DNA of 6,591 nucleotides from Prolixibacteraceae bacterium (GTDB taxonomy: Bacteria > Bacteroidota > Bacteroidia > Bacteroidales > Prolixibacteraceae). Both the position numbers and the translations under genes were made by a program. Positions 3,304 through 6,591 of this stretch are shown here, in pieces (the first letter of the stretch is position 1; each line of letters begins with the position of its first letter). A model generated the notes under the pieces. The model saw only the letters and a list, made by a program, of their open reading frames with translations, was not told the origin of the DNA and did not search any database. The stretch is from positions 1 to 6,591 of the forward strand of contig WRIQ01000067.1 of the NCBI GenBank assembly GCA_009782655.1, read 5' to 3'.

Positions 3304-3422
3304 AAATAGAAAAACGAAAACAGAAACCGACTGATGAAACGCATTTTTACTCGTTTTCGCAATCAGTATTTTTTATTACCAGTTGATTTAATCTATAAAT
3401 AATTATAAGTTCAATTAAACTA

Positions 3423-3443
3423 CTTTCGGCTTTGAGCCGAAAG
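3423..3443. repeat. Perfect 9-bp inverted repeat with 3-nt loop
   Basis: CTTTCGGCT (3423-3431) and AGCCGAAAG (3435-3443) are exact reverse complements around a TTG loop. No T-run follows on the minus strand, so it is not a standard Rho-independent terminator. It could end peptidase read-through, mark a dispersed repeat family, or act as a protein-binding palindrome upstream of the activase. Confidence 0.75.
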
Positions 3444-3448
3444 ATTTG

Positions 3449-3468
3449 AGTTCGGCTGAAGCCGACTT
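3449..3468. repeat. Second inverted repeat sharing the TCGGCT/AGCCGA core
   Basis: TCGGCT (3452-3457) and AGCCGA (3460-3465) pair around a 2-nt spacer, and the stem can be lengthened by AGT/ACT if one base is bulged. The core repeats that of the hairpin at 3423-3443 eight bases away, so the two form a tandem pair of related palindromes. Confidence 0.65.
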
Positions 3469-3489
3469 AAGAAAAGCGCCGCCACAGAA

Positions 3490-3580
3490 CATCCCGTTAA
3501 GGATGCAAAAACATAATGATACCGTATTTTCTAAAGATAGAAGCATTCCTAACGGAATGCGGTTTCAATGTTCTATCATT
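3490..3580. repeat. REP-like cluster of nested palindromes
   Basis: Three inverted repeats lie together. CATCC/GGATG (3490-3494, 3501-3505) encloses CGTTAA. GCATTCC/GGAATGC (3543-3549, 3554-3560) encloses TAAC. AATGATA/TATCATT (3515-3521, 3574-3580) flanks the second hairpin at a distance. The two small hairpins are variants of one design, a CATYCC stem with a TAAC or GTTAA loop. From memory, similar palindromes recur in Bacteroidetes intergenic regions. A dispersed REP-type element is an inference that needs a genome copy count. Confidence 0.5.
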
Positions 3581-3647
3581 ACACTAAAGTCTTCGCTTGA
3601 AGGCGAGGGATTTTCCCCCAGATTGATATATTAAATATGCGATAATT

Positions 3648-5021
3648 TTAGCGCAATGCTTCCACCTCTTCGGCTGTGAGGGGAATTTTCTTTCCCAGCC
3701 TTCGCGCTCCGGTTTCGGTGATAAGGAAATCTTCTTCGTTGCGCAAACCTCCAAAATTTCGGTATGCTTCGAGTTTTTCGTAATTGATGAACTGCGCGAA
3801 CCGCTTTTCTTTCTTCCAAAGGTCGATCAATTCGGGAATGAAATAGATTCCGGGTTCGATGGTGAGGACAAATCCGGGTTCCAGTTTGCGGGCGAGACGC
3901 AGCGATTTACGCCCGAACTGCGTACTTTTTGGCGCTCCGTCGTAACCGACCCACACTTCGCCGAGGTTTTCCATGTCGTGCACATCGAGGCCCATCATGT
4001 GTCCCAGTCCGCAGGGGAAAAACATGGCATGTGCACCCTCCCGCACCGCTTCGGCCGCGTCGCCGCGCATAACGCCCAGCGATTTCATTCCTTCGCAGAT
4101 TATCGTTGCCGAGAGATCGTACACATCGCTGAAAAAAACGCCCGGACGCAATGCTTCCACAGCCGCCATGTGCGATGCCACCTGAATATCGTATATCTCT
4201 TTTTGGCACGTTGAGAATTTTTTTCCCGCCGGAATGGTCGACGACATGTCGCCGCAATAGCCCGTCATGGTCTCTGCTCCGGCATCAACCAGAAACATGT
4301 CGCCTTCTTTAACCGTATTGCCATGATAGTGGTTATGCAGCGTTTGTCCGTTAACGGTAGCGATAGTCGGGAAGGCCAGCCTGCCACCCTGCGCCAACGC
4401 AATTTCCGACAAAAGGGCTGCAATTTCATACTCTTTCATGCCAATGCGAACTGCCTTTACGGCAGCAATGTGCATGTCGGCCGTGATGTCGCAGGCTTTT
4501 TCAATTTCGGCAATTTCTTCCGGCAATTTGTAGTTGCGCTGCGCCACTACAGCCTTAATGAAATCGACCGAAGATTCCTGTTTTGCAGCATCGACGCCCA
4601 ACAGGTTCATCAGTTTCAGCTTATGTTCAGGGCGATAGGCCGGTAGAAAGTGAATTTTTTGTCCCTTTGACTGCGCCTTTTCCAAATAGGCCGACAAATT
4701 TTTGATAGGCATACTCGACTGAATACCAATCAAATCGCTCTTCTCGCGAATGGAAGGTTGCGTTCCCATCCACACAATGTGGTCGATAGAAAGATCGTCG
4801 CCGAAAATTATCTCCTTGTCTTCGTCAACGTCGATTACGGCATACAATCCGGCATACGACAATCCGAAGAAATAGAGGAAAGTGGAATCCTGACGAAAAT
4901 CGTAGGTGTTATCCTCATAATTCATTGCACATTCGTCGTTGCCGATAAATAGCAAAATGCCCGAACCTGTCGACTGCTTCAACAGGTTTCTGCGTTTGAT
5001 ATAGGTTTCTTTTGAAAACAT
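3648..5021 (-). CDS. pepP: Xaa-Pro aminopeptidase (aminopeptidase P, M24B)
   Basis: This is a two-metal (usually Mn) peptidase that removes the N-terminal residue from peptides with proline at position two; related enzymes also cleave X-Hyp bonds. At 457 residues it is close to E. coli PepP. An aminopeptidase-P N-terminal domain covers about 3-140, and the pita-bread M24 domain about 170-440. All five metal ligands are visible: Asp246 (VDAGAE), Asp258 (YCGDMS), His341 (GLGHMMG), Glu389 (TIEPG) and Glu429 (GGLRNEED). Accessory histidines are His229 (TLHNH) and His348 (DVHD). There is no signal peptide, so it acts in the cytoplasm on imported peptides. The start is an ATG with an A/T-rich leader. 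It lies 344 bp upstream of the activase-hypD pair on the same strand, which suggests a proline/hydroxyproline peptide pathway. A dipeptide-specific prolidase is the main alternative. Confidence 0.9.
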   Translation of the reverse strand: MFSKETYIKRRNLLKQSTGSGILLFIGNDECAMNYEDNTYDFRQDSTFLYFFGLSYAGLYAVIDVDEDKEIIFGDDLSIDHIVWMGTQPSIREKSDLIGIQSSMPIKNLSAYLEKAQSKGQKIHFLPAYRPEHKLKLMNLLGVDAAKQESSVDFIKAVVAQRNYKLPEEIAEIEKACDITADMHIAAVKAVRIGMKEYEIAALLSEIALAQGGRLAFPTIATVNGQTLHNHYHGNTVKEGDMFLVDAGAETMTGYCGDMSSTIPAGKKFSTCQKEIYDIQVASHMAAVEALRPGVFFSDVYDLSATIICEGMKSLGVMRGDAAEAVREGAHAMFFPCGLGHMMGLDVHDMENLGEVWVGYDGAPKSTQFGRKSLRLARKLEPGFVLTIEPGIYFIPELIDLWKKEKRFAQFINYEKLEAYRNFGGLRNEEDFLITETGARRLGKKIPLTAEEVEALR

Positions 5022-5090
5022 ATTTTTATGATTTTTAAATAGATAGACTTCATACTTTTTTCTTTTATGCCTGAACCGCCCGCATTCTCA

Positions 5091-5582
5091 TTATTGTTTT
5101 GTCTGGCGTTGTACTGACTTTTCAATAAATTCTCTACTCAAGCCTGTCAATTTAGAAATTTCATCGATGGTGTTCCCTTGTTTGTATAGCCGAAACGACA
5201 AATGTTCTAATGTTTCGCCAATCTCAATGATATTCTTGTCGGGGTCATAAAATTTCACACCGAGTTGTTTCCAAGGGGCTTCTTGAAGTTCGTGTATAAA
5301 TTCAACTTTTTCGGTTATCAATTTTTCAACAATTTGTTCCACATTGTCGTATTCAAAGTAAAGTTCAAAATTGTTGCCGCCAACAACAACCTCTTTATTG
5401 TCAATCAGCATTCTGAAATGAGGTCGCAAGTGAATCGAAAATCCTCCAAATGAAACATTTTCGCCATAATCGGCTTCAACTTTTTGTCCCAATACATTTT
5501 CGTAAAAACTTCGCGACCTTTTAATGTCCGCAACTGTTATCAGAGAACCCATAAATTTTATTGTTCCTGTTTCTTTGTCCAT
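5091..5582 (-). CDS. VOC/glyoxalase-fold protein with C-terminal helix-turn-helix-like tail
   Basis: The open frame reaches a TTG at 5603, but I prefer the ATG at 5582 (163 residues). That start puts GSLITVADIKRSRSFYENVLG, a typical opening of a vicinal oxygen chelate (VOC) repeat, about ten residues in. The VOC fold covers about residues 9-124, with FELYFEY (Glu73) and NIIEIGE (Glu120) in positions where family members hold metal or substrate. The first ligand position, often His, is Val17, so lactoylglutathione lyase activity is unlikely. After the fold, residues 129-157 read like a small helix-turn-helix (TIDEISKLTGLSREFIEKSV), suggesting binding or regulation rather than plain catalysis. 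The gene is more AT-rich than region 1. It sits 131 bp after a promoter-bearing repeat and 69 bp before pepP, so read-through into pepP is possible. The substrate is unknown. Confidence 0.75.
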   Translation of the reverse strand: MDKETGTIKFMGSLITVADIKRSRSFYENVLGQKVEADYGENVSFGGFSIHLRPHFRMLIDNKEVVVGGNNFELYFEYDNVEQIVEKLITEKVEFIHELQEAPWKQLGVKFYDPDKNIIEIGETLEHLSFRLYKQGNTIDEISKLTGLSREFIEKSVQRQTKQ

Positions 5583-5662
5583 ATGCTTATTTTCAAATTT
5601 CAATGTTCTCTCATTGTCCGTTTATATTTTCTTCATTGTCGCACCGCGCTTTCGCCGCTCGT

Positions 5663-5790
5663 GTGCAACGGATCGCACGCTTTGCGCAGCGGGGGACTCA
5701 TTCAACTTGCCACAAAGGTACAAAACTTCCTTTTACCGCCAAACTGGCGAACCGTTACATCCCCCGCTTGCGAGAAACCGACAATTGTGC
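5663..5790 (-). repeat. Promoter-bearing palindromic repeat, copy 1 (attC-like)
   Basis: This pairs with the copy at 6436-6561. Positions 5687-5759 are identical to 6459-6531 over 73 bp, and after one extra T here 5761-5781 matches 6532-6552. AGCGGGGGA (5688-5696) pairs with TCCCCCGCT (5760-5768), and with one bulge the stem extends to CGCA/TGCG. An inner hairpin CGCCA-AAC-TGGCG lies at 5737-5749. The outer ends read, on the minus strand, GCACAAT (5790-5784) and GTTGCAC (5669-5663), placed like the R boxes of integron attC sites but fitting the consensus imperfectly. It begins about 30 nt after the upstream reading frame's stop and precedes the VOC gene. Confidence 0.85.
5713..5743 (-). promoter_or_regulatory. 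Bacteroidetes-type promoter inside repeat copy 1
   Basis: On the minus strand, TTTG (5743-5740) is followed after 19 nt by TACCTTTG (5720-5713). This is an exact fit to the Bacteroidetes sigma-ABfr consensus of a -33 TTTG and a -7 TAnnTTTG. Transcription would start near 5706 and give a leader of about 125 nt before the VOC gene's ATG at 5582. Both boxes lie within the 73 bp conserved exactly between the repeats. Confidence 0.7.
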
Positions 5791-5820
5791 TCTGGCACTA
5801 TATTTTCAAATACCGTCACT

Positions 5821-6045
5821 TTATGTTAATGGGTATTCATTGGATCGAATACCCATCCATATTCCAATCGGTGCTAAAAGCGACAATAAAAGCAATATGA
5901 ATCCGTAATAAGCCCCGAACATTCCCTGTCCAAGCCATAGATAACCAATTTTTATTACGCCGGGCATGGAAAGCAAAGCGCATAAAATTGAGTACACGAA
6001 AACAGGGATATTATTTTTTATCTGCGATGTAGATGTGTACTTTAT
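5821..6045 (-). CDS. Reading frame with two membrane segments, in -1 frame after the zinc protein
   Basis: A 74-codon frame ending in TAA (5823-5821) overlaps the end of the zinc-protein gene and has no ATG near its beginning. Its translation carries two hydrophobic segments, about residues 12-38 (IPVFVYSILCALLSMPGV onward) and 43-66 (FGAYYGFILLLLSLLAPIGI). A short polar tail RSNEYPLT follows. This is unlike chance translation of noncoding DNA. It joins the upstream frame exactly by a -1 slip on the A7 run at 6045-6051, giving a 179-residue zinc-ribbon plus membrane-anchor protein. Alternatives are an independent small gene from GTG 5997 (58 residues) or ATG 5967 (48 residues), or the broken half of a pseudogene. 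I favour one original gene, either frameshifted or programmed. Confidence 0.5.
   Translation of the reverse strand: MKYTSTSQIKNNIPVFVYSILCALLSMPGVIKIGYLWLGQGMFGAYYGFILLLLSLLAPIGIWMGIRSNEYPLT
5829..5856 (-). repeat. Perfect 10-bp inverted repeat at the end of the membrane-segment frame
   Basis: ATGGGTATTC (5829-5838) and GAATACCCAT (5847-5856) are exact reverse complements around an 8-nt loop. The structure covers the last codons of the 5821-6045 frame and ends just before its stop. No T-run follows on the minus strand, so an RNA-stabilising or terminator-like hairpin, or a protein-binding site, are all possible. Confidence 0.6.
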
Positions 6046-6359
6046 TTTTTTGTTAAACCATATCTCATTTCTGCCTGCCTTAATAAATCTGAATAATCAT
6101 CTTTTCCGGCTAACTCAAAGATTGTATATTGGTCACATGCCGGGCAAAGTTGTCCATCTCGGCTTGAAGCGGAATGTTTTGGCATTTTTCTTTTGCAACC
6201 ATCACAAATAATTGTGCCGCATCTCACACAAGTTAATGCAAGTGGATTCTCGCTTTTATTCATCGGGTCCGTAGCAACTATTGTCTTATACAACACAATA
6301 TCGTTACGGCTACATACTTTACAAATTAATTCATTCATTTTCTTCAATTTTTGCTCCAT
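6042..6359 (-). CDS. Small Cys8 zinc-binding protein, function unknown
   Basis: I do not recognise a named family. From the ATG at 6359 the product has 105 residues with four CXXC knuckles: Cys13/16, Cys44/47, Cys52/55 and Cys72/75. Eight evenly paired cysteines suggest two zinc ions, either as two ribbons or as a RING-like cross-brace (spacings between pairs of 27, 4 and 16). The C-terminal part, about 86-103 (DDYSDLLRQAEMRYGL), is likely helical. A second ATG at 6338 (Met8) is also possible. The gene ends AAA AAA TAA on a seven-A run, and a -1 slip there continues into a frame with two membrane helices, suggesting a membrane-anchored zinc protein. It lies between the two promoter-bearing repeats, 126 bp after the promoter in repeat 2, as a one-gene cassette. 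Confidence 0.72.
   Translation of the reverse strand: MEQKLKKMNELICKVCSRNDIVLYKTIVATDPMNKSENPLALTCVRCGTIICDGCKRKMPKHSASSRDGQLCPACDQYTIFELAGKDDYSDLLRQAEMRYGLTKK
6045..6051 (-). other. A7 slippery heptamer (A AAA AAA) before the zinc-protein stop
   Basis: On the minus strand the zinc-protein frame reads ACA AAA AAA TAA. The A_AAA_AAA heptamer in that phase is a classic -1 frameshift site, and the -1 frame stays open for 74 codons. I see no strong downstream hairpin. A purine-rich AAGGCAGG lies roughly 25 nt upstream, farther than in known stimulators. One extra A would also fuse the frames, so an assembly error or mutation must be considered. Confidence 0.5.
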
Positions 6360-6435
6360 GTGGAACGGTTTATACTAATTTCGACTAACTTTCATTTTTT
6401 TCAATTCATTGTCCATTGCACTGTCGCCCGCTTGC

Positions 6436-6561
6436 GTTTAACATTCTGCGGCTTTGCTCAGCGGGGGACTCATTCAACTTGCCACAAAGGTACAAAACTT
6501 CCTTTTACCGCCAAACTGGCGAACCGTTACACCCCCGCTTGCGAGAAACCGAACGTTGCAC
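6436..6561 (-). repeat. Promoter-bearing palindromic repeat, copy 2 (attC-like)
   Basis: This second copy lies 772 bp from copy 1. Its core 6459-6531 is identical to 5687-5759. AGCGGGGG (6460-6467) pairs with CCCCCGCT (6532-6539). The pairing continues outward imperfectly: minus-strand GCGTGCAACGTTC, starting two bases before the GTGCAAC box, aligns with the reverse complement of the other end, GCGTTTAACATTC. The terminal boxes are GTGCAAC (6561-6555) and GTTAAAC (6442-6436); the second fits the integron R' consensus GTTRRRY exactly. An inner hairpin CGCCA-AAC-TGGCG lies at 6509-6521. It precedes the zinc-protein gene. Confidence 0.85.
6485..6515 (-). promoter_or_regulatory. Bacteroidetes-type promoter inside repeat copy 2
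   Basis: Minus-strand TTTG (6515-6512), a 19-nt spacer and TACCTTTG (6492-6485) match the -33/-7 consensus exactly. The start would be near 6478, giving a leader of about 119 nt before the zinc-protein ATG at 6359. The geometry is nearly the same as that of copy 1 with its gene. Confidence 0.7.
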
Positions 6562-6591
6562 GCTGGCATTTTTGAAATTATTTCTTTCATT

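Follow-up and report, generated by a model that had tools for sequence, protein, structure and literature searches.

In this work, the stretch of DNA analysed (the window) was a 6591-bp contig whose minus strand has genes for a glycyl-radical enzyme, for a radical-SAM protein like its activase, for an M24 peptidase and for a glyoxalase, besides small ORFs. The M24 peptidase has 77% identity with its counterpart in a Tannerella MAG, and the gene order peptidase – activase – enzyme is common to the window and a 'Prevotellaceae' MAG. Judged by gene sequence, the closest relatives of the window are Bacteroidales. Two direct repeats, at 5679-5764 and 6451-6536, share 98% identity, and one more block matches at 84%. 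The longest stretch without a mismatch measures exactly 73 bp (5687-5759 = 6459-6531), and a second one has 21 bp (5761-5781 = 6532-6552). A sequence-only reading of this DNA had described, within 5663-6561, two same-orientation repeats 772 bp apart with a 73-bp identical core; the repeat comparison recovered them, and that span corresponds to the two sites delimited here, at 5663-5792 and 6436-6563. The features of the region are the following:

5663..5792, minus strand: attC-like site A (hairpin); covariance model R1, 76.9 bits, a match that is partly by construction because A is among the 18 sequences building the model; alignment A1
5784-5790 (R'' side) and 5663-5669 (R', GTTGCAC), minus strand: boxes of site A
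6436..6563, minus strand: attC-like site B; R1, 83.9 bits (B is also in the model); alignment A1
6555-6561 (R'', GTGCAAC) and 6436-6442 (R', GTTAAAC), minus strand: boxes of site B
5687..5759, minus strand: 73-bp identical core, copy A (loop and inner stem)
6459..6531, minus strand: 73-bp identical core, copy B
5669..6441, minus strand: putative gene cassette of about 773 bp between two G|TT junctions, from which it was delimited
6042..6359, minus strand: 105-aa ORF of the putative cassette, with a weak B-box zinc-finger-like match below the cut-off
5821..5997, minus strand: 58-aa ORF of the same putative cassette, which may not be a gene; no Pfam match
5091..5603, minus strand: glyoxalase-like gene after site A, ATG at 5582; Pfam Glyoxalase_2
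5713..5743, minus strand: promoter-like TTTG-N19-TACCTTTG in the loop of A
6485..6515, minus strand: promoter-like TTTG-N19-TACCTTTG in the loop of B

Apart from itself, the 105-aa ORF matched one homologue (61% identity), which lies on a contig of 528 bp, and a repeat ORF used as a protein query gave no match. Exact 21- and 22-mers of the core occur neither in the viral contigs nor in the genome contigs (0 in each). BLAST of the repeat gave 10 weak matches in six of eight genomes at E ≤ 1 and none in the 393 genomes of the order at 1e-3; matches in 4 of 395 genomes of the phylum were judged to lie within coding sequence (ORFs listed for L091 only), and blastn against plasmids and phages gave one weak match each. 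The family-level search matched 6 of 199 genomes, of which locus L120 of genome G809 was kept; in G809 there were matches to the arm TTACACCCCCGCTTGCG as well as to the promoter-like part. The same genome holds CCCCCGCTTGCG five times (three places just behind a gene, one before metK, one inside a gene), with no match in the control. For AAGCGGRGGTRTANGYCCGC, 4 of 299 genomes matched; G809 was kept, and the three single matches were judged from their sequence to be due to chance. The palindrome search GCGGGGG..CCCCCGC matched 22 of 393 genomes, its reversed control also matching in many, and locus L097 of G309 was kept. In G203 and G289, several near-identical palindromes of this kind, about 93 bp long, were seen, which are perhaps another dispersed repeat family. 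Among viral contigs, CGCAAGCGGGGGTGT gave 30 stretches, of which L129 was kept, and pattern scans added L128, L129 and the group L185-L195. On rescoring with R1, L186 and L187 were found not to be members, and L170, first set aside as chance, was found to be one (58.9 bits, with a second site at 7890-8023); it is included in no count.

Nineteen sites were cut out and 18 of them aligned (alignment A1), with site C30c left out. The sites form a hairpin family of ~130 bp kept by compensatory changes. In the stem, both sides had changed in 28 cells, where shuffling gave a mean of 11.0 (0 of 500 shuffles as high), 91.4% of cells were paired against 78.3%, and sliding the partner lowered the pairing from 91% to 40-57%. 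The hairpin that is characteristic of attC is thus present in the family, as seen from this covariation. For the R''–R' pairing within one site, the local covariation was not significant (P 0.075). With the covariance model R1, 20 sites were detected in G809 (from 21 matches, of which one was a palindrome read on the opposite strand; some of the 20 are half-sites), five in G185, three in G123 and one in G309. None was detected in G001 or G003, to which the window's closest relatives by gene belong. The family occurs in viral contigs as well. In the R1 site set, 51 matches minus two opposite-strand palindrome matches gave 49 sites, L190 and L193 being left out as the same site as L188. Furthermore, in an even sample of 84 genomes from the order of G123, apparently Bacteroidales, 26 matched R1 at E ≤ 1e-5 with stricter filters, these E-values being rough. 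As background served 80 named loci around the M24 housekeeping gene (L001-L080, mostly Bacteroidales, about 0.8 million bases, including three viral loci), which gave no R1 match at E ≤ 1 outside the viral locus L170.

As the sequence-only reading had supposed, the copies are not randomly oriented to genes. For the 70 sites outside six phage-type contigs, the preceding gene lies on the site strand in 58 cases, on the opposite strand in two, and is lacking in ten; for the following gene the figures are 46, 21 and 3. In the same order (same/opposite/none), a subset of 33 sites gives 25/1/7 before and 27/5/1 after, and 37 further sites give 33/1/3 and 19/16/2. The six phage-type contigs (L185, L188, L191, L192, L194 and L195) were set apart after the result had been seen. 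Their 16 sites give 4/7/5 before and 2/14/0 after, the genes running mostly against the site strand; without this split, all 86 sites give 62/9/15 and 48/35/3. L128 and L129, which are also viral contigs, were kept among the 33. Because the test relies on the longest ORF (60 aa or more) in the neighbourhood of a site, single rows can be wrong; at L251, for example, metK follows on the same strand and the row says opposite. A site at the 3' end of a gene and in the same orientation was thus found for the 70 sites but not for the 16 phage-type ones. The orientation of the sites is tied more closely to the preceding gene than to the following one, which is the layout of attC, a site that belongs to the gene before it. 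In the viral contigs L192, L194, L195 and L170, sites lie between small genes and DNA methylases, and some of the methylase genes start inside a site and run against its strand. An exchange of cassettes with phages is a possible reason for the reversed genes.

In integron cassettes the start and the end are complementary, and the start (R' of the preceding site) was therefore compared with the end (R'' of the next site), G-T pairs being allowed. In a set of 15 pairs of neighbouring sites taken from new genomes, pairing was seen at 52 of the 60 variable positions, against 33.8 on average after shuffling, and none of 20,000 shuffles scored as high. This set comprises same-strand neighbours within 6000 bp, between some of which undetected sites may lie, and its 20 regions, from 15 of the 26 matching genomes, were chosen for strong or neighbouring matches. 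In the first set, 33 of 52 positions pair in 13 pairs (shuffled mean 22.5, P 0.0026), where two of 15 pairs had been skipped with R' or R'' unreadable and one pair with an empty R'' was scored 0; seven pairs are perfect, in L192, L194 and L195. Complementarity of the cassette start to the cassette's own R'' was thus observed when pooled over the relatives, whereas the cassette of the window failed the test, its own pair (GTTAAAC / GCACAAT) pairing at one of four variable positions. The window cassette is possibly decayed. The R'' box GTGCAAC of site B is the exact complement of GTTGCAC, the R' box of site A. An insertion of the 773-bp segment into an older site would lead to such a match, and this single case suggests such an insertion. 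The boxes themselves are loosely kept: of the 49 sites, 42 have AAC at the 5' end, 35 have GTT at the 3' end, 30 have both, and six have the strict RYYYAAC. Contig C30 of G809 carries five tandem sites with all genes in one direction, which follow a 134-aa ORF, a 310-aa ORF, a Fic protein, an HTH protein and a 241-aa ORF, respectively. An ORF that is HNH-like by its sequence precedes the 134-aa ORF.

At locus L281 of genome G035, a recombinase gene (7469-8269, plus strand) is divergent from an array whose five sites lie between 6451 and 362. On the minus strand at 6472-7368, the first cassette of this array starts with GTTAGCGGC and ends with GCCGCTAAC, giving complementary ends of 9 nt; in the later cassettes the genes run mostly against the site strand, as in the phage-type contigs. 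A contig of G123 begins within a cassette start, G|TTAGCAGC, from which an intact recombinase gene (239-1081) is divergent, and in G309 a recombinase remnant is divergent from a cassette with GTTAGGC..GCCTAAC ends. The remnant consists of an N-terminal piece in one frame and TTEIYTHIADISKSAIKSPLD, resembling the end of the intact enzymes, in another. With the N-terminal piece as the query, 3 of 198 genomes were found, G309, G185 and G123, and the intact recombinase genes of the latter two lie near a contig end. By searching 29 regions, such a recombinase was found in two, L281 and L290, that of L290 running in the same direction as the site and not divergent from it. A divergent integrase beside an array is thus seen in L281, in agreement with G123 and the G309 remnant, but not in L290 and not in the window, within which no recombinase of this kind was found. 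The first cassette of L281, beside the recombinase, encodes a CAP12/Pycsar TIR effector, probably an anti-phage gene.

The kinship of these enzymes was assessed with profile models. The recombinases of G123 and G185 reach 233-234 bits against TIGR02249 (integron integrase), under its cut-off of 265, and 200-203 against the XerD model; the ordinary XerD of G309 reaches 165 and 357, respectively. The L281 recombinase scores 126 bits against TIGR02249, less than against XerC or XerD. NF040815 (recomb_XerA, 'site-specific tyrosine recombinase/integron integrase', cut-off 220) is passed by G123 (238) and G185 (236) and failed by L281 (168), but it is not discriminating because the ordinary XerD of G309 (250) also passes. 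Residues 188-204 of the G123 recombinase (16 residues) span residues 185-244 of IntI4 (59 residues), and the extra IntI domain is therefore missing in it; an integrase with the IntI-specific extra domain was thus not seen in this comparison. The scores are suggestive of a kinship of the G123 and G185 recombinases to IntI. G809 gave no TIGR02249 match over the cut-off, and matches below the cut-off, since they occur in five of six genomes (G809 included) and in 14 of 14 controls, say little. Among plasmids, recombinase matches amounted to 707 records, with no array noticed in the three contexts viewed. The recombinase search of viral contigs gave two distant loci, and ten viral-contig records held two distant matches of 25-27% identity. 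A Flagellimonas plasmid (L220, NZ_CP092416, 11038-12813) has an annotated 'tyrosine recombinase/integron integrase' beside an annotated resistance gene, with no cassette array noticed by this annotated integrase.

We hypothesize, with a probability of about 0.8, that Bacteroidales and their phages have an integron-like system of gene cassettes, most likely with an unusual recombinase, and that the repeats are its attC-like recombination sites. The complementary cassette ends and the divergent recombinase at one array indicate that the repeats are attC-like and the 773-bp segment a cassette, so the window most likely contains two attC-like sites and one cassette. At the level of sequence, the argument is carried by the family and its hairpin, the complementary ends in relatives and the sites at gene 3' ends, together with the tandem one-gene cassettes and the divergent recombinase gene beside one array. 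Each site would form a hairpin with the outer R''/R' boxes, a site-specific recombinase of the tyrosine type, akin to Xer and the integron integrases, would cut the G|TT of R', and this cut would lead to the insertion or removal of one gene with its site. The recombinase found here would be the one that acts on these sites, and the window would be a stretch of such an array.

The promoter-like sequence TTTG-N19-TACCTTTG, which we take to be the consensus promoter of the Bacteroidota type, is present exactly in both copies and faces the next gene, as had been claimed. The -7 boxes lie at 5713-5720 (A) and 6485-6492 (B) on the minus strand, and the near-equal distances to the start codons were also confirmed (131 from 5713 to the glyoxalase ATG at 5582, 126 from 6485 to the start of the 105-aa ORF at 6359). 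Both strands of the window give only these two matches to TTG-N18-21-TANNTTTG, which count as one event because both repeats are copies of one sequence. By comparing with 79 sites outside the window that were not selected for a promoter (five sites picked by TANNTTTG being excluded from the 42), the looser pattern is found in the loop in two of two window copies and in 3 of 79 other sites (1/42 and 2/37), with none on the opposite strand. The single match among the 42 is a G809 half-site upstream of metK. The bare -7 box TANNTTTG occurs in 2 of the 42, which is the chance level (shuffled mean 2.05), and in 3 of the 37. In the subset of 33 sites there are three in-site promoter matches, both window copies and the metK half-site, with none on the opposite strand, and five matches in the 300 bases behind these sites. 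Common to the family is ANNTTTGTG, often near the 3' stem, which was found in 22 of 42 and 21 of 37 sites and never on the opposite strand; the shuffled mean for the 42 is 0.90, the related sites not being independent. In alignment A1, the -7 box of the window lies about a dozen columns before the ANNTTTGTG motif and not at it. Compared by eye, site L240 of G809 has TGTACCCCGC where the window has TGTACCTTTG, and over a longer stretch GTTTGTACCCCGC against GTTTTGTACCTTTG. The letters of L240 differ at the -7 box, which suggests that the box of the window is derived. This kind of promoter, found in 3 of the 79 sites outside the window, is therefore local and at best exapted. Thus, the loop promoter is real as a sequence and plausible as a promoter, and it does not define the repeat; in the two window copies it may serve the next gene, possibly as a local exaptation. 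In L120 (1480-1600, contig C25 of G809), a half-site with the exact TTTG-N19-TACCTTTG lies directly upstream of metK, a gene named by reading of the ORFs, and adjoins two small ORFs resembling a toxin-antitoxin pair. An essential gene may here use a captured site as its promoter, and no other site hints as clearly as this half-site at an exaptation of such loops. By eye, the loops of the sites in L225-L236 and L277-L296 are built of about three degenerate repeat units, roughly 20 bp long, with TTTGTG.

The repeat had originally been read as a possible portable promoter cassette, a unit that spreads or is kept since its core drives the next gene while its arms insulate it. The exact promoter facing the next gene in both copies, its recurrence in the metK half-site of G809 and the restriction of the looser ANNTTTGTG to the gene strand (22/42 and 21/37) speak for this proposal, which was not supported as an account of what the repeat is: the promoter is rare in other sites, its bare box is at chance level in the 42, the orientation is tied to the preceding gene, and the terminator signal is absent in 5000-6591. 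We consider it improbable. The same promoter evidence bears on another account, in which the attC-like sites also carry working promoters in this host, so that both readings hold for the two window copies, both of which keep the promoter near-equally far from a start codon. With the two copies amounting to one event and the promoter placed elsewhere than the ANNTTTGTG motif of the family, this combination is a serious but tentative possibility, to which we give rather less than even odds. The hairpin invites two further explanations. As short dispersed palindromes found in several genomes, the repeats could be REP/MITE-like elements spread by a transposase, but the complementary ends belong to the segment between two sites and not to one site, and the sites stand in tandem with about one gene between them; this origin appears slightly less probable still than a portable promoter. 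Ordinary transcription terminators or RNA structures at gene ends would likewise follow genes and fold strongly. The sequence-only reading had proposed such a strong hairpin as a possible terminator; the hairpin is indeed predicted, but a search of 5000-6591 revealed no stem of the terminator type with a T run. In addition, no Rfam family fits (one chance-level match elsewhere), and the complementary cassette ends are left unexplained, which makes this the most improbable of the explanations.

The attC-like sites can be compared with known systems. The long attC repeats of Vibrio cholerae, 101-128 bp in length (PMC11014356), resemble the family in size and in being palindromes with R''/R'. Integron attC of the long type shares with it the G|TT junction, the site after the gene and the complementary cassette ends. 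On the other hand, the family differs in R boxes looser than RYYYAAC/GTTRRRY, in a loop that by eye comprises some three degenerate repeat units and bears ANNTTTGTG, and in its Bacteroidales hosts. The window, contig C30 of G809 and the viral contigs are like CALIN, clusters of attC without an integrase (PMC9024848), the likeness being that of tandem sites on a contig where no integrase was seen. Phages, among them the Polaribacter phage P12002L, carry CALINs that contain cassettes for DNA methyltransferases, and attC2 of P12002L was recombined by IntI1 when assayed (PMC9892861); these methylase cassettes recall the methylase genes among the sites of L192, L194, L195 and L170. In P12002L, R1 gave weak short matches (55-67 nt, E 0.11-0.89), two of them near methylase genes, which may not be the tested sites. 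Cassette-borne promoters have been reported in other bacteria. In Vibrio sp. DAT722 a cassette promoter bridges the attC junction (PMC2945992), so that promoter parts lie within attC, as here; its -10 box is in the next cassette, whereas in the window both boxes lie within the loop. A review judges attC not to act as a terminator.

The IntegronFinder 2.0 survey of complete RefSeq genomes lists for Bacteroidetes proper one complete integron, that of Salinibacter ruber M1 (PMC9024848), and a 2008 survey places intI in the Bacteroidetes/Chlorobi group. In the open-access literature consulted, no account of Bacteroidales arrays like these was seen. Compared with the one complete Bacteroidetes integron of the IntegronFinder survey (PMC9024848), sites of one related family are found here in 26 of 84 genomes of one order. 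If the proposed reading is true, integron-like gene capture would be common in a major gut group and shared with its phages, with Fic, HTH and TIR-effector genes as examples of what is carried. The sites also make it possible to test whether hairpin attC sites can be recombined by an enzyme that lacks the extra domain of IntI. A wider proposal, an overlooked and widespread integron-like system of Bacteroidales with an Xer-like recombinase lacking the IntI extra domain, attC-like loops that turn into promoters and cassettes shared with phages, is more speculative, and as a whole we hold it to be rather unlikely; if true, a cassette would bring a promoter for whatever is inserted behind it.

Two other parts of the window carry repeats of their own. 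Between the activase and M24 genes, at 3421-3605, there are short inverted repeats (CATCCCGTTAAGGATG, TTCCTAACGGAATG) that look like a different dispersed repeat, and near the contig end, at 24-66, an AT-rich inverted repeat is perhaps a third repeat family.
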